A stretch of DNA of 53,505 nt from an uncultured Nitrospira sp. (lineage in GTDB: Bacteria > Nitrospirota > Nitrospiria > Nitrospirales > Nitrospiraceae), in assembly GCA_902500755.1 (NCBI GenBank), contig CABVRV010000008.1, forward strand, positions 1 to 53,505, read 5' to 3'. Numbering within the stretch: the stretch's first letter is position 1; each line of letters begins with the position of its first letter. Below the pieces are notes generated by a model. That model had not been told where the DNA came from and did not search any database. It was given only the letters and a program-made list of their open reading frames with translations. Below are positions 211 through 12,489 of the stretch, one piece after another. The translations under genes were made by a program, and so were the position numbers.

Positions 211-2535
211 CTATAAACCTCTTTGGATTGATGGCTGATACAGATATCTCTGAAACCCAACGAAAACCTTTCCAATCTCTTCTGGCTGCCCGAGGTCGGC
301 CACGGCATCAGCAATGGCCCCGTGATACTTGAGTCGCAAGAGCGGAGAAAGCTTGTCCTGAGACAGCTCCTCCACCCCAACTCTGACGTATTGCGCGAGC
401 ACGAAGTTGAGGAATGCCTGCTGCTTGCTGTTGAAGTGCGTGCTGATCTCTAGTTTAGCTCTAGCCGCCCGCTCCTCGCGCGTGAGTGGGGCAAGTGCAT
501 AGGCCACATGGGCCAGCACGTCGAAGAGATCGCTGTTCTCAGCATCGATGATCCGCTGCATCTCTGCCATCTGCTCAGCGCCGAACCCTTTTTCGGCAAG
601 CCCCTGTAAAAGCTTGGCGCGAGTATCGGGACTGCTCCAGAGAGCGCGGAGTTCTGCTTCGTCTTTGAAGAACTCCGGCAGTTTTCCAAACAGCATCTCT
701 AGGAATTGCTGTGCGGACATAGACGTCCCGTCCGGATGCCAAAAGGTCGTCACCATCATGTGCTGGATGGTGCGGGCTTTCCCGTCGGCTAGCTTCACCT
801 TGATGCGCTTTCTCTTCACATACTCGACAGGCTCTTCGCGCACTCTATCGGCCAGTGGAGGTAATGGAGGAATCGTCTCACCTTCCGGCCTTGGCTCCGG
901 CTCAATCGGCTCCCCATCCCATTCAGGATCACTGAAGTGGTGGTGCGCCTTCACGAAGTCGTAGATCGTGAAGTAGTCCTTTCCATCGTACAGCCGCGTG
1001 CCACGTCCGATGATCTGCTTGAACTCGATCATTGAATTGATCGGACGCATCAGGACGATGTTACGGATATTGCGGGCGTCTACCCCAGTCGAGAGCTTCT
1101 GGGAGGTGGTGAGAATCGTTGGAATCGTCTTTTCGTTGTCTTGGAAGTCGCGGAGGTGTTGCTCGCCGAGCTCACCGTCGTTGGCCGTCACCCGCTGGCA
1201 ATAGTTGGGATCCGTGCTCGTCTTCAGTTGATTGATGAGATCGCGTACGGCCAGGGCGTGGTCCTGCGTGGCGCAGAAGACCAACGTCTTCTCTTGCTGG
1301 TTGATCTGGCCCATGAAAATCTCGACACGCTTCTTCTCGCGCTCTTTGATCTCGATGATCTTATTGAAGTCGCCCTCCTGGTAACGCTTCTTCACCTCAA
1401 TCTCACCTTCCACGAGGGTATCGTCCGGCGTATAGACATACTCATCGAGCGTCGTGGAGATCTGCTTCACCTTGAACGGCGTGAGAAACCCGTCGTTGAT
1501 GCCGTCCTTCAGTGAATAGATATAGACCGGCTCGCCGAAGTAGGCGTAGGTGTCTATGTTGTCTTTGCGTTTAGGCGTGGCGGTAAGGCCGAGCTGGACG
1601 GCGGGGGCAAAGTACTCGAGGATGCCACGCCAGTTGCTCTCGTCGTTCGCGCCGCCACGATGGCATTCGTCAATGACGATGAAGTCGAAGAAATCAGGCG
1701 GATACTCGCCGAAATAGGGGATGTCCCCTGGCCCGCTCATGAAGGTCTGGAAGATGGTGAAGAACAGGCTCCCGTTCTTCGGCACTTTGCCCTTCTTCCG
1801 AATATCGTCCGGTTCGATCCGCACGAGCGCGTCTTCTGGAAAAGCAGAGAACGCGTTGTAGGCCTGGTTGGCCAGAATGTTGCGGTCGGCCAGAAACAGA
1901 ATGCGGGGACGTCGGGACGGTTCCCGGCTCAGATTCCAACGGCTGTGAAAGAGCTTCCAGGCGATTTGGAAGGCGATGAAGGTCTTGCCGGTACCGGTGG
2001 CAAGTGTCAGGAGAATACGCGGCTTGGCCTCCGCAATGGCCTCCATCACTCGCTCAACTGCAATGTCTTGATAATAGCGGCTGGGATGCGAGCCGCCCTT
2101 ATCTTCGAACGGAACTGACGCAAAGCGATCCCGCCAGGCATCCTGCTTGGCAAAGGTCCTTTTCCAGAGGTCATCCGGGCTCGGGTACTGTGGCCACTCG
2201 CCTTCCTTGCCCGTCTCCATGTCGATGCCATAGAGCCCTTGGCCGTTGGTGGCATAGGTGAAGCGAACAGCGAGTTTCGCGGCATACTGTTTCGCCTGGG
2301 CGACGCCTTCCGTCACTTCCTCATCCCAGGCCTTGGCTTCAATGACCGCGAGCTTGGTATTGCGATACACCAGTACATAATCGGCAATGAGCGGCTTCGC
2401 GCGCCTCCCCAAGCCTTCGATGCGGCCCAAGGTGATGGGATACTCGCGGAGAATGCGGCTGCCCTCGACGACGCCCCAACGAGCCGCTTTGAGGGCAGGA
2501 TCGATATGCTCGGCTCTGGTCTCAGCTTCGTTCAT
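211..2535 (-). CDS. hsdR: type I restriction endonuclease, motor/nuclease subunit HsdR
   Basis: The 774-residue restriction subunit of a type I restriction-modification complex. It translocates DNA with ATP and cuts unmodified DNA far from the recognition site. The N-terminus has a PD-(D/E)xK nuclease signature (D52, then EAK at 66-68). The superfamily 2 motor follows: Walker A ATGTGKT at 179-185, DECH box at 289-292, motif III TATP at 318-321 and motif VI QIIGRGTR at 507-514. The C-terminal 170 residues fit the EcoEI-type HsdR C-terminal domain that docks on the methylase. The length is normal for the short EcoEI-like class. The ATG at 2535 overlaps the rhuM stop by 4 bases, so translation is probably coupled. 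All motor and nuclease residues look intact. Confidence 0.95.
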   Translation of the reverse strand: MNEAETRAEHIDPALKAARWGVVEGSRILREYPITLGRIEGLGRRAKPLIADYVLVYRNTKLAVIEAKAWDEEVTEGVAQAKQYAAKLAVRFTYATNGQGLYGIDMETGKEGEWPQYPSPDDLWKRTFAKQDAWRDRFASVPFEDKGGSHPSRYYQDIAVERVMEAIAEAKPRILLTLATGTGKTFIAFQIAWKLFHSRWNLSREPSRRPRILFLADRNILANQAYNAFSAFPEDALVRIEPDDIRKKGKVPKNGSLFFTIFQTFMSGPGDIPYFGEYPPDFFDFIVIDECHRGGANDESNWRGILEYFAPAVQLGLTATPKRKDNIDTYAYFGEPVYIYSLKDGINDGFLTPFKVKQISTTLDEYVYTPDDTLVEGEIEVKKRYQEGDFNKIIEIKEREKKRVEIFMGQINQQEKTLVFCATQDHALAVRDLINQLKTSTDPNYCQRVTANDGELGEQHLRDFQDNEKTIPTILTTSQKLSTGVDARNIRNIVLMRPINSMIEFKQIIGRGTRLYDGKDYFTIYDFVKAHHHFSDPEWDGEPIEPEPRPEGETIPPLPPLADRVREEPVEYVKRKRIKVKLADGKARTIQHMMVTTFWHPDGTSMSAQQFLEMLFGKLPEFFKDEAELRALWSSPDTRAKLLQGLAEKGFGAEQMAEMQRIIDAENSDLFDVLAHVAYALAPLTREERAARAKLEISTHFNSKQQAFLNFVLAQYVRVGVEELSQDKLSPLLRLKYHGAIADAVADLGQPEEIGKVFVGFQRYLYQPSIQRGL

Positions 2536-3581
2536 GGCTTCTTTTTTCTGGGCTTCGCGGGTCGGGGTAACTTCTGAATCCGCTTGGCCGCCTGTTCAAA
2601 AGCCGTATCAACCGGACGCGGCTGCGCATCAACAAGTGCACGATAGCAATCGTACTCCAGCTCGGCCTTTGCCTTGGCCGCTTCCGCGGAAATCCTCCCC
2701 GCATGCTCAAGCAGCTCGCGCCCGGACAACTGCAGAAATTCATCCAGCTTCGCTATCCAGTCGTGCATCGTCATCGGCCGTCGATTGAGCGCCTGGAGTT
2801 CAGCGAACTCCAGATAGGCAGTCACAATCCGGTTCAGCGCGTGCAGTTCACCTTCAGTGAGATAGTTCTTCGCAATGGCGACATCGTCCTTCCGGATAAT
2901 CCCGCCGGGCCTCGTCGTGGTCAGTCCCATGAATGGCTTGGTCGCATCAGCCCGCCGATGGATTACTTCCGCCGCCGTCTGCCCATGCGTGGCCCAATGC
3001 ATCTTGTTCTGCACCGTTGCAAAAAACTGCTGAGACAGCTCCACATTAGGCTGGTAATCCACACTTGTCGAATAAATGTCGAGGACCTTCTGATAAAACC
3101 GCCGTTCCGACGAACGGATATCCCGAATGCGCTCCAGCAGCTCGTCGAAATAATCCTTCTGGCCAGGACCCGGCGGATTCTTCAGCCTCTCGTCGTCCAT
3201 GGCGAAACCCTTCACTAGGTACTCGTTCAACCGGACCGTGGCCCACTGGCGGAACTGCGTGCCTCGATGGCTCCGCACCCGATAGCCGACGGCGAGGATG
3301 GTGGGAAGGCTGTAGTGCAACACTTCCCGAGACACCTGACGAGCGCCTTCCCGTCGAACTATTAAGTACGGCTTAATAGTTGCCGCTTCGGTCAACTCTC
3401 CCTCCGCATAAATAGCCTTCAAGTGCAGATTGATGTTGGCCACGGTGGTTTGGAATAACTCTCCAATCTGTGCCTGGGTCAGCCAAATCGTGTCATGCTC
3501 CAAGCGGCACTGAATGCGCGTGCGGCCGTCTTCCGTTTGGTAAAGGATGATTGAAGAATTTGGTGGCGTCTCGTCAGGCAT
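2532..3581 (-). CDS. rhuM: RhuM family protein inside the type I R-M operon
   Basis: A 349-residue protein of the virulence RhuM family, first named in a Salmonella pathogenicity island. The family's biochemical role is not established. The N-terminal half carries the recognisable block (ILYQTEDG, then DTIWLTQAQIGELF, HYSLPTILAVGYRV and GTQFRQWA), which resembles a phage KilA-N/Bro-like DNA-binding region. The rest is helical with a basic Lys/Pro tail. I chose the ATG at 3581, eight bases after the hsdS stop, instead of the longer frame from 3680, because the extra 33 residues lie inside hsdS and lack family character. It overlaps hsdR by 4 bases, so it is co-expressed with the R-M system. 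RhuM genes often sit in type I loci; whether they regulate, inhibit or assist restriction is unknown. Confidence 0.9.
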   Translation of the reverse strand: MPDETPPNSSIILYQTEDGRTRIQCRLEHDTIWLTQAQIGELFQTTVANINLHLKAIYAEGELTEAATIKPYLIVRREGARQVSREVLHYSLPTILAVGYRVRSHRGTQFRQWATVRLNEYLVKGFAMDDERLKNPPGPGQKDYFDELLERIRDIRSSERRFYQKVLDIYSTSVDYQPNVELSQQFFATVQNKMHWATHGQTAAEVIHRRADATKPFMGLTTTRPGGIIRKDDVAIAKNYLTEGELHALNRIVTAYLEFAELQALNRRPMTMHDWIAKLDEFLQLSGRELLEHAGRISAEAAKAKAELEYDCYRALVDAQPRPVDTAFEQAAKRIQKLPRPAKPRKKKP

Positions 3582-3589
3582 TATGCTTC

Positions 3590-4783
3590 CTAGAGCTTTC
3601 CACTGAAGGCCTGGTGCAGCAGCGACTTCTTCAATTCGCCCAGCGCGGCGAGCTTTTGCTGATAGATGGATTCGAGGCATTGGGTTTGGGTAGCGAGGGC
3701 GTCGAGCGTTGCCACCATACCCCGTTGTTGCTTAGGCATGATCTTGGGAACCTTAAAATTCCGTAGCAGCTTCAATGAAACTGTCTTTTGCGCAGCACCC
3801 GTCGCACCATCGTTCGCCTGCTTGAAAACTTGCGGAGACAAGAGCAAATAGTAAAGCCAAGCACTACTCGTCTCAGTCTTTGGACGAATCAAGCCGATGT
3901 GTCGTTGGAAGCAAAATTCGACGCCATCGGTCACTATGACCGGAATTCCGAACGATCCTGTGACCGTATAGAGCACATCCCCCTTCTTCGGCTTCTTGTT
4001 CGCCTTTAACTCATTGTAGTATTCATGCGGAACCATGAATGTGTCAGAAAAATCGATTTTGCGAGTTTCCTTCACAATGTTTCCGATAGTGATGAACGGA
4101 ACGCCGGTTGGAGATTTCGGAGGGGGTAAATGATCGCCATCCGTAATGTCAGATGCCAATTCCGAAAGCGTCACTAGCTCAGACGTGAGCCACGCATCTG
4201 CAAAGACGGATTGCAGGTGGCTTTCGAAGAGGGCGCGGGCGTTGCTGAGATTCTGTTCGGCGTTGGCTATGGCACGGGTGAGGCCGTCAAACCCTTCGTC
4301 GAGGATACCGACGATCCGTTGCTGTTCAGGGAGCGGTGGCACAGGAATTTGCTGGGAGCGAACGTCACCATCCGTGACCGCAGGATAACTCGCGCCCTTC
4401 TGCAGCTTCTTCATCTCAGCCATGAAGACATCATTTTGAAGAAAGTAATAGATGAAGCGGAAATCGATGTGTGGCTGCGGGCGAAGGACGAAGTAGCCAG
4501 TGCTGCATATTTGATTATCGAGTTCATCGGGAACGATGGCGATGCGCCGCAACGTTGGGCGAATCGTCGCAAACAAGACATCATTCGCTCTGACGAGGCG
4601 CCTCGCTCTACTTGGCGCATCCTTGCCTTTAAGTCTCTGGGTTTCTTGAATCGTCAACGTCTCATTAGACACACTTGAGACGTCAATGTAATCAAACTCG
4701 GTTTGCGGCAACCGTGTTGGGTCAGCGGTCTCAGTTTTTACCAAAACATCGCCCAATGCTTTGGTCTGCCACTTGTTTTTCAT
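3590..4783 (-). CDS. hsdS: type I restriction-modification specificity subunit HsdS
   Basis: The 397-residue subunit that reads the bipartite DNA target for both methylation and cleavage. Two target recognition domains are visible: residues about 1-150, ending in the conserved PLPEQQRIV block (150-158) with a long helix (160-194), and residues about 200-350, ending in PKQQRGMV and a second helix down to LLHQAFSGKL. This pseudo-twofold layout is typical of HsdS. The ATG overlaps the hsdM stop by 4 bases. The two halves differ in sequence, so the target should be two different half-sites. It cannot be predicted from sequence alone. Confidence 0.93.
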   Translation of the reverse strand: MKNKWQTKALGDVLVKTETADPTRLPQTEFDYIDVSSVSNETLTIQETQRLKGKDAPSRARRLVRANDVLFATIRPTLRRIAIVPDELDNQICSTGYFVLRPQPHIDFRFIYYFLQNDVFMAEMKKLQKGASYPAVTDGDVRSQQIPVPPLPEQQRIVGILDEGFDGLTRAIANAEQNLSNARALFESHLQSVFADAWLTSELVTLSELASDITDGDHLPPPKSPTGVPFITIGNIVKETRKIDFSDTFMVPHEYYNELKANKKPKKGDVLYTVTGSFGIPVIVTDGVEFCFQRHIGLIRPKTETSSAWLYYLLLSPQVFKQANDGATGAAQKTVSLKLLRNFKVPKIMPKQQRGMVATLDALATQTQCLESIYQQKLAALGELKKSLLHQAFSGKL

Positions 4784-6258
4784 AGCAGCGCCTTTATGTT
4801 TCCCAACACCTCAGCACTTTCTGCATCAAGCGCGGCGATCTCGTCCATGATCTCCTGCGGGCTGCGGTGCGTGACCACTTCGCCGCCGTTGGGGTTCTTC
4901 ACGGAGAGATCGAAGGTCGTCTGGTCGATGCTCTTCGCATCCACGATCCAGGATTTAGGCGAGTCGGCTTTGGTCCTTTGCAGCTTCACGAACTCGGCGA
5001 GGTCGTCATCATTGAGCGGGTTGGTTTTGCCGAGGCTGCGCCCTGGATCGAGCTGGTAGTACCAGATCTTTCCGGCCTGCACTGAGCCCGGTCGAAGGGT
5101 AGGAGCACCTTTCTCGAAGAACAGGACAACGGTCTTCACGCCCGCGCCCTGGAACGAGCCGCTGGGACAATCCAAAATCGTGTGGAGGTTGCAGCTTTCC
5201 AGCAGCAACTTACGGAGACTCACGGACGCATTGTCTGTGTTGGAGAGAAAGGTATTCTTGATGACCACACCGCCGCGCCCGCCCGCCTTGAGGCTCTTGA
5301 TGAAGTGCTGGAGGAAGAGAAACGCCGTCTCGCCGGTACGGATGGGAAAGTTCTGCTGCACTTCCTTCCGCTCTTTCCCACCGAATGGCGGATTGGCCAG
5401 AACGACCTCATACCGGTCTTTCTCCTGAATGTCGGCCAGGTTTTCCGTGAGCGTGTTGGTGTGGATGATGTTCGGCGCCTCGATGCCGTGCAGGATCATG
5501 TTCATGATCGCGATCACGTAGGCGAGCGACTTTTTCTCTTTCCCGTAGAAGGTCTTTTCCTGAATGGTCTTGAGGTCTTTCGTTGAGAGGCCGCCTTTAG
5601 CGGTTAAATAGTCATACGATTCGCACAGAAATCCTGCCGAGCCACAGGCGCCGTCATAGATGCGGTCGCCGATCTTCGGCTTGACCACCTGCACCATGGC
5701 GCGGATGAGCGGGCGCGGGGTGTAATATTCGCCGCCGTTGCGGCCGGCATTGCCCATGTTCTTGATCTTCGCTTCGTAGAGGTGCGAGAGTTCGTGCTTT
5801 TCCTTCTGCGAACGGAAACGCAGCTCGTCGATGTGGTCGATGATCTCGCGCAGGTTGTAGCCGCTCTGAATTCTGTTCTTAATCTCGCCGAAGATTTCCC
5901 CGATCTTGTACTCGATGGTGTTCGGCCCGCTGGCCTTCTGCTTGTAGCTATGCAGGTAGGGAAAGAGTTTCAGATTGACGAACTCGGTGAGGTCAGGACC
6001 TGTTTTAGCGGCGTTGTGATCCAGCTTGCCATCCTTCCCCTTCGGCGCGGCCCAGCTTTCCCACCGGTAGGGCTTATCCAGGATAAAGCTGTAGCGCTTC
6101 CCCTCCAGCCTGACTTCGTCGGCCTTGTCCTGCTCCAGCGCGTCGAGATATTTCAGGAACAAGAGCCAGGAGGTCTGCTCGGTATAGTCCAGCTCCGTCG
6201 TACATCCGGCTTCTTTCCGGAGTACGTCATCGATGTTCTTGAAGGCTTGTTCAAACAT
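4780..6258 (-). CDS. hsdM: type I restriction-modification DNA methyltransferase HsdM
   Basis: The 492-residue N6-adenine methyltransferase subunit. The helical N-terminal domain begins MFEQAFKNIDDVL. The AdoMet-binding motif I is at about 200-210 (YDGACGSAGF) and the catalytic NPPF at 289-292. The frame is open to 6408, but the ATG at 6258 matches the family start and has a GGGAG about ten bases upstream, so I take that start. It is the first gene of hsdM-hsdS-rhuM-hsdR. With HsdS alone it would form the protective methylase. The roughly 200 bases upstream (6259-6466) hold no gene and must contain the operon promoter, although no convincing -35/-10 pair is visible. Confidence 0.95.
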   Translation of the reverse strand: MFEQAFKNIDDVLRKEAGCTTELDYTEQTSWLLFLKYLDALEQDKADEVRLEGKRYSFILDKPYRWESWAAPKGKDGKLDHNAAKTGPDLTEFVNLKLFPYLHSYKQKASGPNTIEYKIGEIFGEIKNRIQSGYNLREIIDHIDELRFRSQKEKHELSHLYEAKIKNMGNAGRNGGEYYTPRPLIRAMVQVVKPKIGDRIYDGACGSAGFLCESYDYLTAKGGLSTKDLKTIQEKTFYGKEKKSLAYVIAIMNMILHGIEAPNIIHTNTLTENLADIQEKDRYEVVLANPPFGGKERKEVQQNFPIRTGETAFLFLQHFIKSLKAGGRGGVVIKNTFLSNTDNASVSLRKLLLESCNLHTILDCPSGSFQGAGVKTVVLFFEKGAPTLRPGSVQAGKIWYYQLDPGRSLGKTNPLNDDDLAEFVKLQRTKADSPKSWIVDAKSIDQTTFDLSVKNPNGGEVVTHRSPQEIMDEIAALDAESAEVLGNIKALL

Positions 6259-6466
6259 GCGGAGGGTCTCCCGGCAGCTGTAGCGAATTAGCGCCGAAGG
6301 ATACCCGTTTCCCCATGAGAAATCACGCCGATATAGCATCGGTTGGCGGAAAAGAACATGAGTCGGTTTCGGCGTGGATATGAAGGATGGGGCTGGAGAA
6401 GGCCACAACCCTATGGGCTAAGATGTGAGAGCGGCTTGTACCATTGACGGACCTTGGCCGACCGTT

Positions 6467-7690
6467 TTAGGACTGAGCTTGATCGAGGTCGAACGCTGTA
6501 TGGAGAGACCGCATGGCCAATTCGAGATATTTCTCATCGATGACGCAGGAGATTTTGATCTCGGAGGTGCTGATCATCATGATATTGATGCCCTCCCGAG
6601 ACAGCACCTCGAACATTTTTGCCGCCACCCCAGAATGCGACCGCATCCCCACCCCAATCAACGAGACTTTGGCAATGGCTTCCACGACCGACACGGACTT
6701 TGCCTCAATGGCCTTCGCCACCCCTTGAATGAGCGGCTCAGCCTTTTTCAGATCGGCACGCGGGATGGTAAACGAGAGATCCGTCATGGTGGCTTGGCCG
6801 ATGTTTTGAATGATCATATCCACATTGATATTGGCCTCTGCCACAGGTCCAAAAATTCTGGCGGCAATCCCAGGTTTATCCGGCACCCCAATGATCGTGA
6901 CCTTGGCTTGATTGCGATCTCCGGTCACACCAGCGATGGCAGCTGCTTCCATATCCTTATCTTCGTTCGTCACGAGCGTTCCCTTTCCTTCCGTGAAGCT
7001 GGAATTGACTTCCACGGGGACATTGAACTTGGCCGCAAACTCGACCGACCTGGTTTGGAGCACTTTCGCTCCGAGGCTGGCCATTTCAAGCATCTCCTCA
7101 TAGGCGATCCGATCGATCCGCCTTGCCGCCGGAACAATGTTCGGATCTGCGGTGTAGACACCATCAACATCGGTAAAAATGATGCACCGATCGGCCTTCA
7201 GGGCGGCCGCTAATGCGACCGCGGAGAGATCGGACCCGCCTCGTCCCAGCGTGGTCACATCCGAAAACTCATTGATGCCCTGAAAACCGGCCACAACGGG
7301 AACTACTCCTTGTCCCAGCGCCTCGCGGATACGATCGGCGGTTACCCTGGCGATCCGGGCCTTGGTGTGGGCGCGGTCGGTCATGATGCCGACCTGTCGA
7401 CCCGTAAAAGACCGCGCATTGATGCCACGCCCTCGCAACTCCATCGCCAGCAACGCGATGGTGACGCGTTCTCCCGTTGAGAGCAACATGTCCAGTTCGC
7501 GTTCATCAGGAACAGCCGTCACCTCGTGAGCGAGTTTGATCAGCCGGTCCGTCTCTCCGCTCATCGCGGAGAGCACGACGACGAGGCTATTCCCGTCCCG
7601 CTGAGCCTGAGCCACACGGTCGGCGACTCGATGGATTCGCTCGACGGTGCCAACCGACGTCCCGCCGTATTTGTGAACGATCAGCGCCAC
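6467..7690 (-). CDS. lysC: aspartate kinase
   Basis: A 407-residue aspartokinase, the first committed step (L-aspartate to aspartyl phosphate) of Lys/Thr/Met synthesis. The start shows the nucleotide/aspartate motif KYGGTSV at 7-13. The middle has GRGGSD and a [10 protein letters not shown] segment, and the last 140 residues form tandem ACT domains for allosteric control, probably by lysine and/or threonine. It is the last gene of a five-gene minus-strand operon and starts 5 bases after the apgM-like stop. Length and motifs are normal. Confidence 0.96.
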
Positions 7691-7695
7691 AGGCT

Positions 7696-8904
7696 TCAGC
7701 TTTTGGAGAAGAACTTGTTCGCAAACTTGGTGGCATCACGGGCAGGAATGTTGGAAGCAATCGCATCGGCCTCGGTGAAGCGGCGGCTGACGGTCCCGGC
7801 CCCTTTTCCGCCACCTTCACCAAACGCGTACAACGCCGGCCCCTCAATTCCTACGGTATGGTCGCATATCACGAGAAAGCGATAGGAGCCTTGCTTGTCC
7901 AAGCCTTCAACCAAGGGACCGACCAAGTCACGATCGAAGGCTTCGATTCCCTTGACCTTCGCCTTGATGTCGGTGCCGTGGATGACCTCATCCGTCAACT
8001 TGGTATGGACATAGACAAAATCCTTCTTGGCAAATTCCTCCAATGCCACGGTGGCCTTTGCACGGAGATCACCACCCTCCAGCCGCTCTGGATCCACCGC
8101 CTCGAGGCCCGCACTGATCCCTATGCCTCGATGGACATCGTTAGTGGCAACGACCGCCCCTGCCACCTCGTATTGTTCCACCAGGCTCGGCCACATGACG
8201 GCTCGACCCTCGCCCCAGAGCCAGAGACAATTTGCCGGTTTCTTTCCGGCGGCACTCCGTTCTTCATTGATAGGATGATCGCGCAAGATGAAATAGGCGG
8301 CCTCCATCAGCTTCCGGAGAATATCCGCACCATCCCCAGAGGGTAAGGCATCGGCGATTGATTGACCAAGGATCGACTGCGGATCGGTACAGATCGCCCT
8401 GGGTTTCCCTTTGACCCAGACCATTAAATGACGGTGACCTGCGCCGGGATAAAATTGAATGGTTTCGGAACCGAGCTGCTCATTGATCGCATCAATCAAC
8501 TCGCGAGCGTCCTCAGTTTCGATCAAACCCGCCGTCGCATCGTCCATGATGACGTGTGGGCCCAATTTCTTGATGTCAACGCCCTTGCCCCCTTCCGGTG
8601 CCAAGGTCACCATCGTGCAGCGATACACCACGTCTTGTTCCGTTGCGGATACACCCAAACTGGCCGCTTCAAGCGGCCCAGGACCAGGATAAAACTTCCT
8701 CGGATCGTATCCGAGGATCGCCGTGCCGATCAGCCCGCCTCCAGGGTGAACCCCCTCAGCGGGAATCGTCAGTTGGCCGAGTTCGCCGCTCTGTGCTAGA
8801 CGATCGAGATGGGGAGTCGCGGCTGTTTGGAGCGGTGTCCGACCACCCAGTTCTTCCTGTGGGTCATGGGCCATCCCTCCGGCATGCACGATCACATATT
8901 TCAT
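7696..8904 (-). CDS. apgM-like alkaline-phosphatase-superfamily protein, candidate homoserine kinase
   Basis: A 402-residue member of the archaeal-type cofactor-independent phosphoglycerate mutase family. Shared segments are [15 protein letters not shown] (17-31), [29 protein letters not shown] and RFTEADA. A branch of this family is described as a proposed homoserine kinase (TIGR02535) in genomes that have the threonine pathway but lack thrB. That is the context here: it lies between thrC and lysC, and no thrB is visible. Odd: the metal-ligand Asp of the usual DGM near the N-terminus is Gly (HAGGMA), and the usual PGSD segment with the nucleophilic Ser and a metal Asp is PGGGL. A DEVIH and a CDH that probably correspond to later ligands remain. 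It may use changed chemistry, be regulatory, or be inactive. Automatic annotation would probably call it phosphoglycerate mutase. Confidence 0.8.
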
Positions 8905-8920
8905 GGACTCTACGCGCCTT

Positions 8921-9979
8921 TCAGACTTTCAGTAAACGAGCAACGTCCTCGCGAGTTGCTTTGACCGTTTGCGGTGGCTTCGACACACCGATCGCCGTAT
9001 CGGCATCCTTCAAGCCATGCCCGGTCAGGGTACAGACGACCGTCGCTCCCTCTTGGAGAGCCTTCTTTCGATGGAGTTTGGCCACCCCGGCCACAGACGC
9101 AGCCGATGCCGGCTCACAAAACACTCCTTCCGTAGCCGCCACGGTTGCGTAGGCTTGGAGAATCTCTTCATCCGTTACCATATCGATCGCACCGGCGGAT
9201 TCCTCCACCGCCGTCAAGGCCGATGACCAGCTGGCAGGATTGCCGATTCGGATTGCCGTGGCGACGGTCTGTGGCTGTTCGACGACTCTGCCCAATACGA
9301 TCGGGGCAGCCCCTGAAGCTTGAAATCCCATCATACGGGGCACTCGCATGATCTGATTCGCCGCACGATATTCTTTATACCCCTTCCAATAGGCGGTAAT
9401 ATTGCCGGCGTTCCCGACCGGCAAGACATGCAGCATCGGAGCGTCGCCGAGTTGGTCGCAGATCTCAAAAGCCGCAGTCTTCTGTCCCTCAATCCTGAAA
9501 GGATTCACCGAGTTGACGAGTTCGATGTGGAGCGACGAGGAAAAGTCTTTCACGAGCGTCAACGCTTGATCAAAATTCCCTTCGATCTGAATCACCGTCG
9601 CCTGATGCATCATCGCCTGGGAGAGTTTGCCCATCGCGATCTTTCCGGCTGGAATCAACACGTATACTGACAACCCCGCACGAGCCCCGTAAGCCGCGGC
9701 GGAGGCCGAGGTATTGCCGGTTGAGGCACACATGACGGCCCGCGCGCCACCCTCAACAGCCTTTGAGATGGCTAAGGTCATTCCCCGGTCTTTAAAGGAA
9801 CCGGTTGGGTTGACCCCCTCAAACTTCAAATAGAGTTCGATTCCCGGCGCGATCGACTTGGCTAATCGTGTGGCGCGAATCAGCGGCGTATTGCCCTCTC
9901 CCAAACTGATGACCGGAGTCTTCTCAGTCACAGGGAGAAATTTTCGGTACTCCTCAATGACTCCGCGCCAGCGATTCAT
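8921..9979 (-). CDS. thrC: threonine synthase
   Basis: A 352-residue PLP enzyme converting O-phosphohomoserine to threonine. The PLP lysine lies in SFKDRGM (K63), preceded by the substrate-loop text EGNTPL. A Gly-rich phosphate-binding segment (GNAGNI) is in the middle. The size fits the short bacterial class without the long N-terminal domain. It follows hom by 3 bases and is followed after 16 bases by the apgM-like gene, so substrate-producing and substrate-consuming steps are encoded together. A threonine synthase implies that the cell makes phosphohomoserine, although no classical homoserine kinase is nearby. Confidence 0.95.
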
Positions 9980-9982
9980 CGA

Positions 9983-11296
9983 TCACTCGTCCTTGCCTTC
10001 GACTCGAATGAGCATGGTCGGTTCGGAGACGAACGGCTTGTGGTTGATTTCACGGAGCGCGGTTTGTACATCGCGCTCTTTCGCGGTATGTGTCTTGATG
10101 ACAACCTGCACGGTCTGCCCTTCACGACGTCCCTGTTGCACCATCGAGGCAATGCTGATTCCACATCGCCCCAGCTCACCGGCGATCTGCGCCAACACCC
10201 CGGGGCGATCCACAACGGTAAACCGCAGGTAATACAGCGAACTGATTTCTTCCATCGAACGGAGGCGAATCGGCCGTCGCTGATCCTGTTGAAACGACGC
10301 CACCGGCACTCGACCGACGTTGCCTTTGAGTAGATTGCGTCCGATCGCGATCACATCACTGACGACGGCGCTCCCGGTTGGCATAGATCCGGCTCCCCGC
10401 CCATAGAGCACGACGTCACCGACAGCATCACCTACCAATTGAATGGCGTTGTACACACCCTCGACTTGGGCGATGGGCGACGCGGAGGGAAGCATCGTAG
10501 GATGTACGCGAGCTTCGATTTCTCCGTCGATAAGTTTTGCGATCCCGAGCAACTTGATCGTGCAGCCAAACTGTTTCGCATACGCAATATCAGTGGGCGT
10601 GATGCTCGTAATGCCCTCTGTATAGATGTCCTTGAAATTGACCGGGGTTCCATACGCGAGGTTGACGAGAATCGCCAGCTTGTGCGCCGAATCGATCCCA
10701 GCAATATCAAACGTGGGGTCGGCTTCGGCATATCCGGCATGTTGCGCATCCTGAAGAACCTCTTGGAAGCTGTGCCCTTCATGCGTCATTCGTGACAGAA
10801 TATAGTTGGACGTTCCGTTGATGATCCCGTAGATGGATTCGATCGTATTTCCGGCAAGCCCCTCCGTCAACGCTCGAACGACAGGAATCCCGCCACCCAC
10901 ACTGGCCTCAAATCCCACATCCACATCTTTGCGTGTGGCGGCGTCGAAGATTTCCTCTCCGTGGAGCGCCAAGAGCGCTTTGTTGGCAGTGACGACGTGC
11001 TTCCCGGCAGCAATCGCATCCATGATGACTCGCTTCGCCGTATCGTATCCGCCGATGAGCTCGATCACCACATCGATATTCGGATCCGTGAGCACTGCCC
11101 TGGCATCCGTGGTCAAGAGCCCTGGGTTCAACCGCAGCCCCCGGTCTCTCGTGATGTCCAGATCCGCCACTCGAATAAGCTCGATTGGCACGCCCACCCG
11201 ACGGCTGATGAGGGCAGCATTGTGCAGAAGGATCGTGGCAACCCCGGTCCCAACCGTCCCAAATCCCACGATACCCACTCCAATGCGCGACCTCAC
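9983..11296 (-). CDS. hom: homoserine dehydrogenase
   Basis: A 437-residue NAD(P)-dependent enzyme reducing aspartate semialdehyde to homoserine. A Rossmann motif ([12 protein letters not shown]) starts at residue 6. The catalytic region contains [14 protein letters not shown] and [17 protein letters not shown]. The C-terminal 85 residues form an ACT domain ([20 protein letters not shown]) typical of threonine feedback control. The ATG overlaps the upstream aminotransferase stop by 4 bases. It is the second gene of the aspartate-family operon. Confidence 0.96.
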
Positions 11297-12489
11297 TCTT
11301 CGTCTCCATCAAGCTTGAGGGCCTTGCGGATTCCCCTGACCGCTTGCCTTGTTCGATGTTCGTTCTCTACGAGCCCAAATCGCACGTACTCCTCGCCACC
11401 TTCACCGAATCCGATCCCGGGAGAAACGGCAACCTTCGCCTCCTTCAGCAGGAGCTTTGAAAACTCCAGTGAGCCCATGTGGCGATAGGGCAACGGGATG
11501 CGCGCCCAGACAAACATCGTGGCCAGTGGCTTTGCGACCTGCCAGCCGATCCGATTCAACCCACCGACCAACACATCTCGGCGTTTCTGATAGCGCAGCA
11601 CGGTGTCTTTGACGCAGTCCTGAGGACCGTTGAGCGCGATCACGCTCGCGATTTGAAGCGGCTGAAAAATCCCATAATCCAGGTAACTTTTGATTTTCGC
11701 CAGCGCTCCGACGACCTCGCGGTTGCCGACACAGAAGCCCACTCTCCAGCCCGGCATATTATAGGCTTTGGATAACGTATAGAACTCTACCCCACAATCT
11801 TTCGCCCCCGGGATCTGAAGAAAACTCGGAGCCTTGTAGCCGTCGAACACCAAATCGGCATAGGCGAAGTCGTGGATTACGATCACGTTATGTTCCTTGG
11901 CAAACGCGACGATCTTCTTGAAAAATTCCAGATCCACGATGGCTGTCGTTGGATTGTGCGGAAAGTTGATGACCAGAATCTTCGGACGCGGAAATGTCTG
12001 CCGGTAGACTCGAGTCAGATCTTCGAAAAAGTCGCTATCCTGCCGGAGCTCAATCCCACGGACCTCGCCTCCCGCGATGATAAAGCTATACATATGGATG
12101 GGATACGTCGGTGTCGGCGTCAGGACCACATCGCCCGGACCAATCATAGCCAAGGCGAGATGCGCGAGACCTTCTTTTGAGCCGATGGTGACAATGGCTT
12201 CAGTTTCTGGGTCCAGATCGACATCATAATTTCGCTTGTACCAGCTACAAATCGCATGGCGCAGCTTGGTAATTCCGCGCGACGCCGAGTAGCGATGATT
12301 CTTGGCCTTGCGAGCCGCTTCAGTCATTTTTTCGACGATATGAGGCGGTGTGGGTTGGTCGGGATTGCCCATCCCAAAATCGATGATGTCTTCACCGCGT
12401 TGTCGCGCTTCAAGCTTCAGTGATTGAACTTGCGCGAAGACATACGGCGGGAGCCGCTTGATCCGATAAAAACCGTCGCCCAACCCCAT
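11293..12489 (-). CDS. alaC: PLP aminotransferase, AlaC-like (alanine / LL-diaminopimelate type)
   Basis: A 398-residue class I aminotransferase. The PLP lysine is K241 in [16 protein letters not shown], and the substrate and cofactor contacts NFPHNPT (175-181) and HDFAYAD (206-212) are present. Overall text ([21 protein letters not shown]-like PTPTYPIH) matches the AlaC/DapL-related group. It heads the operon that continues into hom, thrC, apgM-like and lysC, so it may supply alanine or glutamate, or act in diaminopimelate synthesis. Substrate cannot be settled from sequence. The 308-base gap to pdxJ must contain its promoter. Confidence 0.85.

Follow-up and report, generated by a model that had tools for sequence, protein, structure and literature searches.

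A probably displaced and disarmed ThrB2-like protein retained in the threonine operon of Nitrospira

A stretch of 53,505 nucleotides from an uncultured Nitrospira sp. (GCA_902500755.1, contig CABVRV010000008.1; hereafter the window) was analyzed together with its source genome, an assembly of 3.8 Mb in 203 contigs that is 94% complete. Members of Nitrospira are nitrite oxidizers and comammox bacteria. The window carries a tight operon in the order aat-hom-thrC-X-lysC, in which X denotes an apgM-like protein whose gene is separated from thrC by 16 bp and from lysC by 5 bp (Table 1). A sequence-only reading of the window had described this operon as one without a GHMP-type homoserine kinase, and profile searches bore this out: lysC, hom and thrC were identified, and no thrB was found. 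Against the apgM profile TIGR00306, X scored 336.6 bits, above the cut-off of 320; against TIGR02535, the profile of a proposed homoserine kinase, it scored 316.4 bits, below the cut-off of 446.3. The earlier placement of X beside the proposed-kinase branch held, and X is the positional ortholog of ThrB2 (TIGR02535). Linkage to threonine genes was general: 78 of 80 named loci have the order thrC-X-lysC, and the remaining two show X-lysC and no thrC. The nearest named records in which the protein was found belong to Nitrospira, including N. moscoviensis and metagenome-assembled genomes labelled N. lenta and N. defluvii.

Table 1. Operon genes and segments of protein X, in window positions.
Feature	Position	Strand	Details
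aminotransferase (aat), operon gene 1	11293..12489	(-)	NF006033, 659 bits
hom, homoserine dehydrogenase	9983..11296	(-)	NF004976, 546.9 bits
thrC, threonine synthase	8921..9979	(-)	TIGR00260, 323.8 bits
apgM-like X (putatively disarmed ThrB2/apgM-like protein)	7696..8904	(-)	402 aa, ATG start
lysC, aspartate kinase	6467..7690	(-)	NF005155, 632.8 bits
X residues 7-13, HAGGMAH	8866..8886	(-)	Gly in place of the Asp9 ligand; new, near-invariant His7 (89/90 Nitrospiraceae)
X residues 53-57, HPGGG	8734..8748	(-)	replaces the PGSD nucleophile/ligand motif (alignments)
X cap domain, approx. residues 58-250	8155..8733	(-)	most conserved part; limits set from PF10143 and the fold
X residues 305-309, DEVIH	7978..7992	(-)	Asp/His ligand pair kept (alignments)
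X residues 348-349, DH	7858..7863	(-)	canonical RTHT histidine downstream missing (alignments)

Behind lysC, the window carries type I restriction-modification genes (hsdM, hsdS) and a RhuM-family gene (2532-6408). Among 53 full-length named Nitrospira loci, cimA was present in 43, mostly directly behind lysC, and hsdM-like genes in five; cimA is absent from the window. The thr/lys operon appears to end at an insertion hotspot.

For mapping of the active site, the ligands D12, D403, H407, D444, H445 and H462 of the Bacillus mutase were used in a numbering that we take to be correct. The nucleophile of that enzyme, Ser62, is named in the title of PDB entry 1o99, and a literature search for support of the ligands other than Ser62 returned none. 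Neither the catalytic Ser nor the full two-metal site looked for in the apgM subfamily was present in X. The replacements of DGM by GGM and of PGSD by PGGG, both remarked on earlier, were confirmed by alignment (GGM at residues 9-11, GG for SD at residues 56-57), which in addition revealed loss of the C-terminal His ligand of the RTHT motif; D305, H309, D348 and H349 are kept. The alignments do not suggest a catalytic Asp or Ser at shifted positions. In the canonical Nitrospirota set, i.e. the best 30 of 75 genomes over the TIGR02535 cut-off, Asp9, Ser56, Asp57, Asp305, His309, Asp348 and His349 (window numbering) and the RTHT His were found in 30 of 30 sequences.

Residue counts were made on 90 distinct Nitrospiraceae sequences, reduced from 107 rows, with the partial or N-filled G041, G004, G033 and L176 omitted; the large alignment omits G058, in which the gene is broken, and G044, in which it is truncated. 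All seven scored residues (Asp9 to His349) occurred together in none of the 90 sequences, the best having six, and the seven ligand/nucleophile positions formed 27 different combinations. Position 9 was G in 49 sequences, D in 29, A in 6 and E in 6; position 56 was S in 60, G in 22, N in 6, I in 1 and R in 1; position 309 was H in 66, Y in 22, Q in 1 and E in 1; and His349 was present in only 50. The C-terminal His column contained His in 0 of 110 Nitrospiraceae rows, a count that includes duplicates and the partial G004, G033 and L176, and 30 of the 90 sequences had a His somewhere in the 25 residues that follow position 349. Asp305 was kept in 89, position 348 was acidic in all 90 (D 84, E 6), and His157 was likewise present in all 90. 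Sequencing error was rejected as a cause of the ligand losses because they recur across many assemblies. Judged from these alignments, loss of the standard mechanism in X is near certain. A residual or shifted metal site would be possible in part of the family, since Ser56, Asp305, the acidic residue 348 and a late His persist in the proportions given above.

The distribution of homologs was assessed in an evenly drawn set of 148 Nitrospirota genomes (family f2, treated below, was not in the draw). TIGR02535 was over cut-off in 75 of 102 genomes outside the order Nitrospirales and in none of the 46 within it. The gene adjoins thrC and/or lysC in 29 of the 30 canonical loci (best 30 of 75), the remaining locus being too short to show it, so the slot beside thrC/lysC is probably ancestral for the phylum. 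Within the order, proteins of the window's family (f1) and of family f3 fell below the TIGR02535 cut-off, and six of six f2 proteins scanned passed it, with 447.4 to 493 bits. In f2, Asp348 is replaced by Asn in all six and Ser56 is Ser in only two; in f3 (three whole genes), Asp9 is kept and Asp305, His309, Asp348 and His349 are all lost. Since f1, f2 and f3 lost different residues, the metal centre appears to have eroded by different routes in different families. In a protein tree that included 15 of the 30 canonical sequences, f1, f2, f3 and the canonical set were each separated from the rest by a branch with 100% bootstrap support; the f3 branches, which are long, join at an uncertain point.

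Several lineages of the order have no working copy of the gene. In one f3 genome (G058) X is split into fragments in several frames; an assembly fault could account for this, although thrC and lysC on either side are intact. In all seven operons read, drawn from the 12 order genomes outside the genus that lack X, the slot was empty, with thrC followed directly by lysC and no tblastn match to X (genera f3-g3, f3-g8 and f4-g4); one order genome without X (G039) is complete in a single contig. Five genus genomes without a match to X are also without an intact main thrC, and the operon was therefore simply not assembled there. Because X is broken or absent in sister lineages beside intact hom, thrC and lysC, it is not the essential kinase of the order.

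The source genome encodes an ortholog of ThrH outside the window (TIGR02137, G000:C43:17580-18173), with 306 bits against a cut-off of 223.4. It aligns without gaps over 198 residues with ThrH of Pseudomonas aeruginosa (281.7 bits), and the DLEG motif in that alignment presumably holds the ThrH nucleophile. Of 59 order genomes, 54 had TIGR02137 over cut-off, among them all 12 non-genus genomes without X and the genome with the broken gene; the others gave no match (G009, G017, G020 and G044) or a fragment only (G015). Two of these, G009 (95% complete) and G017 (90%), have the apgM-like gene with no ThrH found, and f2 has ThrH together with a nearly intact ThrB2. In the even draw of 148, ThrH was over cut-off in 44 of 46 Nitrospirales versus 0 of 102 other Nitrospirota, and the two Nitrospirales below it (G185 and G189) have fragments of the gene at contig ends. 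The classical phosphoserine phosphatase SerB (TIGR00338) was over cut-off in only seven of the 148 genomes and in none of the 46 Nitrospirales, so ThrH may serve in both the phosphoserine phosphatase and the homoserine steps, or as a phosphatase only.

Other homoserine kinases were sought genome-wide. Absence of thrB from the source genome alone would be weak evidence because that genome is 94% complete; GHMP thrB (TIGR00191) was over cut-off in 0 of 59 order genomes, among them the complete G039, which has no X, and the source genome, in which the best match was ispE. The search for a thrB elsewhere that had been called for thus found none over cut-off. Among 14 chosen genomes from the class and phylum, seven had GHMP thrB over cut-off, and five of the seven without it had TIGR02535 over cut-off. 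Only one genome had both (G147, class-level; L236:2617-3849), a case of redundancy in which GHMP ThrB scored 199 bits and the TIGR02535 protein 483.9 bits. Two Nitrospirota genomes (G087 and G061) had thrB, TIGR02535 and ThrH all below cut-off. APH-type ThrB_alt and the shikimate-kinase-like homoserine kinase were sought via PF01636 and PF01202, respectively, rather than via models of their own. PF01636 had three matches in the source genome: an AmgK-like protein (171.5 bits, cut-off 550; TIGR00938 only 21.4) adjoining what by eye is a nucleotidyltransferase-like gene, a 362-aa APH-domain protein (L061:1419-2504) for which no NCBIfam model was over cut-off, and a UbiB-like protein. The three PF01202 matches were a shikimate kinase (NF040667 98 bits, cut-off 197), adjoining an aroE-like gene by eye, and two gluconokinase-like proteins. 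None of these six proteins is a known homoserine kinase.

Paralogs of thrC with 36-44% identity are recurrent in most order genomes. In the source genome, a second threonine-synthase-like PLP protein is clustered with another PALP protein, two ThiF proteins, ThiS and a JAB protein (L077:3488-8500; also L078 and L079), and may produce a sulfur amino acid, with a phosphorylated compound as substrate. It was dropped as a clue to a kinase, with no kinase among the six cluster proteins scanned.

The cap domain proved to be the best conserved part of X. In canonical members conservation is equal in the two parts (cap 0.651, metal domain 0.656). In Nitrospiraceae, identity in 89 or more of the 90 sequences extends to 70 of 193 cap positions; the corresponding counts for the two flanking parts of the metal domain are 10 of 57 and 20 of 152. 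Fitch changes at positions invariant in the canonical set averaged 3.4 across 54 cap positions, 8.8 across 50 metal-domain positions and 8.4 at the seven ligands. At nine cap positions that are fixed or nearly so in the canonical set (29 or 30 of 30; best 30 of 75), 89 or 90 of the 90 Nitrospiraceae sequences share a different residue. Canonical R75, H127, S156, Y157, H176 and D177, which presumably lie on the substrate side, are among the residues replaced in Nitrospiraceae.

X is under purifying selection, with a dN/dS of 0.10 overall, 0.069 in the cap and 0.118 in the metal domain; its operon neighbours gave 0.05 (thrC), 0.081 (hom), 0.048 (lysC) and 0.023 (aat). These are medians over 39 genome pairs with dS of 0.05-1.2 in thrC, hom, lysC and X, taken from all pairs of 28 genomes. 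No internal stop was found in the X frame among the Nitrospiraceae matches listed. Five AlphaFold2 models of the window's X had mean pLDDT values of 88.6, 88.5, 72.8, 71.3 and 70.9, and the full ApgM fold is predicted in the model with 88.6, in a comparison that covered fold and sequence. In its sequence and predicted model, X thus presents the features of a pseudoenzyme: a fold, lost catalytic residues and purifying selection. Because of that selection, the best-conserved cap and the new near-invariant cap residues, X is most likely a retained non-catalytic protein.

Taken together, we consider it probable that X is a ThrB2 that was displaced, disarmed and retained, with ThrH as the working route. 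In the ancestor, the slot between thrC and lysC would have contained an active ThrB2. ThrH, a HAD-family protein that can pass phosphate from phosphoserine to homoserine, would then have been gained by the order Nitrospirales, after which the two-metal centre of ThrB2 would have been free to erode family by family. In Nitrospiraceae the C-terminal His may have gone first and other ligands later, in f3 the Asp/His pairs, and in f2 Asp348 may have changed to Asn; in some genera the gene would have been broken or lost. The Nitrospiraceae X would survive as a folded, probably non-catalytic protein with its cap under selection, and its most likely candidate role is within the aspartate/threonine pathway, as a ligand binder or a protein partner. 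We infer that ThrH is the likely maker of O-phosphohomoserine in Nitrospira, although it may be mainly a phosphoserine phosphatase. The opposed distributions of ThrH and ThrB2 trace mainly to a single event on one branch rather than to repeated independent changes, and outside the phylum the two may coexist, since genes annotated thrH are reported from most Roseburia genomes (PMC7478625, available text) and thrB2 is named in Roseburia spp. (PMC9026213, available text).

A tentative extension, to which we would give clearly less than even weight, is that ThrB2 has a second, cap-domain function that outlives the kinase, such as detection of homoserine, phosphohomoserine or threonine with an effect on LysC or ThrC. 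On gain of another route (ThrH in Nitrospirales, GHMP ThrB in G158) the centre would be dismantled while the cap could stay in the operon. G158, of the same class and another family, has a GHMP ThrB (229.8 bits) and, in its thrC-lysC slot (L239:2926-4134), a 403-aa homolog with 187 bits against TIGR02535 that has lost the nucleophile and ligand motifs and largely kept the cap. Here a different gain was followed by a similar outcome, although one genome is an anecdote.

The displaced-ThrB2 explanation was weighed against four others. ThrH might be a phosphoserine phosphatase only, with some other kinase making O-phosphohomoserine, as the lack of SerB over cut-off in Nitrospirales would allow; moreover, the transfer activity of ThrH is known to us only from the available text of the Pseudomonas work, and the 362-aa APH protein remains without an NCBIfam match over cut-off. 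We hold this to be unlikely, given the strong ungapped match of the source ThrH to the characterized protein and the absence of any known homoserine kinase among the kinase-family matches checked (ispE, the AmgK-like protein below cut-off, the 362-aa APH protein, the UbiB-like protein, the two gluconokinase-like proteins and the shikimate kinase). That X is an ordinary archaeal-type phosphoglycerate mutase is barely credible: its TIGR00306 score and predicted ApgM fold agree with such an enzyme, but the nucleophile and metal ligands are lost and the thr/lys operon context is constant.

It is rather unlikely, in our view, that X is still a homoserine kinase or phosphotransferase with a rebuilt centre made up of the new His7, the kept Asp305, the acidic residue 348 and the new His157. 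These four residues are invariant or nearly so, X is under purifying selection and its gene is fixed between thrC and lysC; however, an active centre would hardly allow ligands to vary by species in 27 patterns, relatives without X keep hom, thrC and ThrH, and the presumed substrate-side residues were replaced too. Of the two alternatives offered by the sequence-only reading, a protein that is not the kinase, the step being done another way, is the better supported, and a different catalytic arrangement the weaker. The accompanying proposal of new chemistry in threonine synthesis was not sustained and is likewise the weaker reading of X, as O-phosphohomoserine could be reached by a known route through the ThrH ortholog, and hom, thrC and ThrH persist in relatives that lost X. 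Slow decay of a functionless gene kept only by its place in the operon would fit a dN/dS above those of all four neighbours, the broken gene in G058 and the absence of X from three genera. We regard it as improbable, since the dN/dS of X is near that of hom and its cap value below it, no in-frame stop occurred among the Nitrospiraceae matches listed, and new near-invariant residues extend across the lineage.

The labels "phosphoglycerate mutase" and "homoserine kinase" on the Nitrospira protein are probably wrong, and ThrH is a candidate for the homoserine step of Nitrospira. Nitrospirales offer a natural experiment: the 30 canonical sequences (best 30 of 75), from Nitrospirota lacking ThrH, have a whole site, and no Nitrospiraceae sequence from the ThrH-bearing order has a complete one, a pattern that supports, without proving, O-phosphohomoserine formation as the chemistry of ThrB2. 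Pairs of intact and disarmed ThrB2 proteins are now named for side-by-side testing of a long-unproven enzyme family. ThrB2 was predicted from co-occurrence and co-localization (PMC9026213). GapMind, in the text available, reports the homoserine kinase proposal for TIGR02535 and leaves it uncertain, noting that BT2402 is needed for growth without threonine and does not complement an E. coli thrB mutant (PMC7311316). A second function of the cap domain, if true, would be relevant to this contrast between the need for BT2402 in threonine synthesis and its inability to stand in for ThrB in E. coli. The present pattern was not found among the papers listed on a Nitrospira homoserine kinase, Nitrospira ThrH or TIGR02535/BT2402/ThrB2, most subscription papers being outside the search, and no such pseudoenzyme case was among those listed under the TIGR02535/ThrB2 names and Nitrospira ThrH.

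Among known systems, X most resembles ThrB2/TIGR02535 (BT2402 of Bacteroides thetaiotaomicron) in its fold family, its place beside thrC and lysC and the cap hallmark WLWG.G. It differs from ThrB2 in falling below the TIGR02535 cut-off, in having lost the nucleophile and metal ligands, and in the replacement of several cap residues. Unlike ApgM, the archaeal-type cofactor-independent phosphoglycerate mutase (2zkt, 3kd8), X has an incomplete two-metal centre and no nucleophile. ThrH (1rku, TIGR02137), with one ortholog in the source genome, would supply the product of the missing kinase; overexpressed ThrH of P. aeruginosa is reported to complement homoserine kinase activity in vivo, with phosphate transfer from phosphoserine to homoserine (PMC1079889, in the text available). 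As a member of the unrelated HAD family encoded outside the operon, ThrH would displace X rather than resemble it. With pseudoenzymes in general, X shares the loss of catalytic residues and a fold, and probably a binding surface, under selection.
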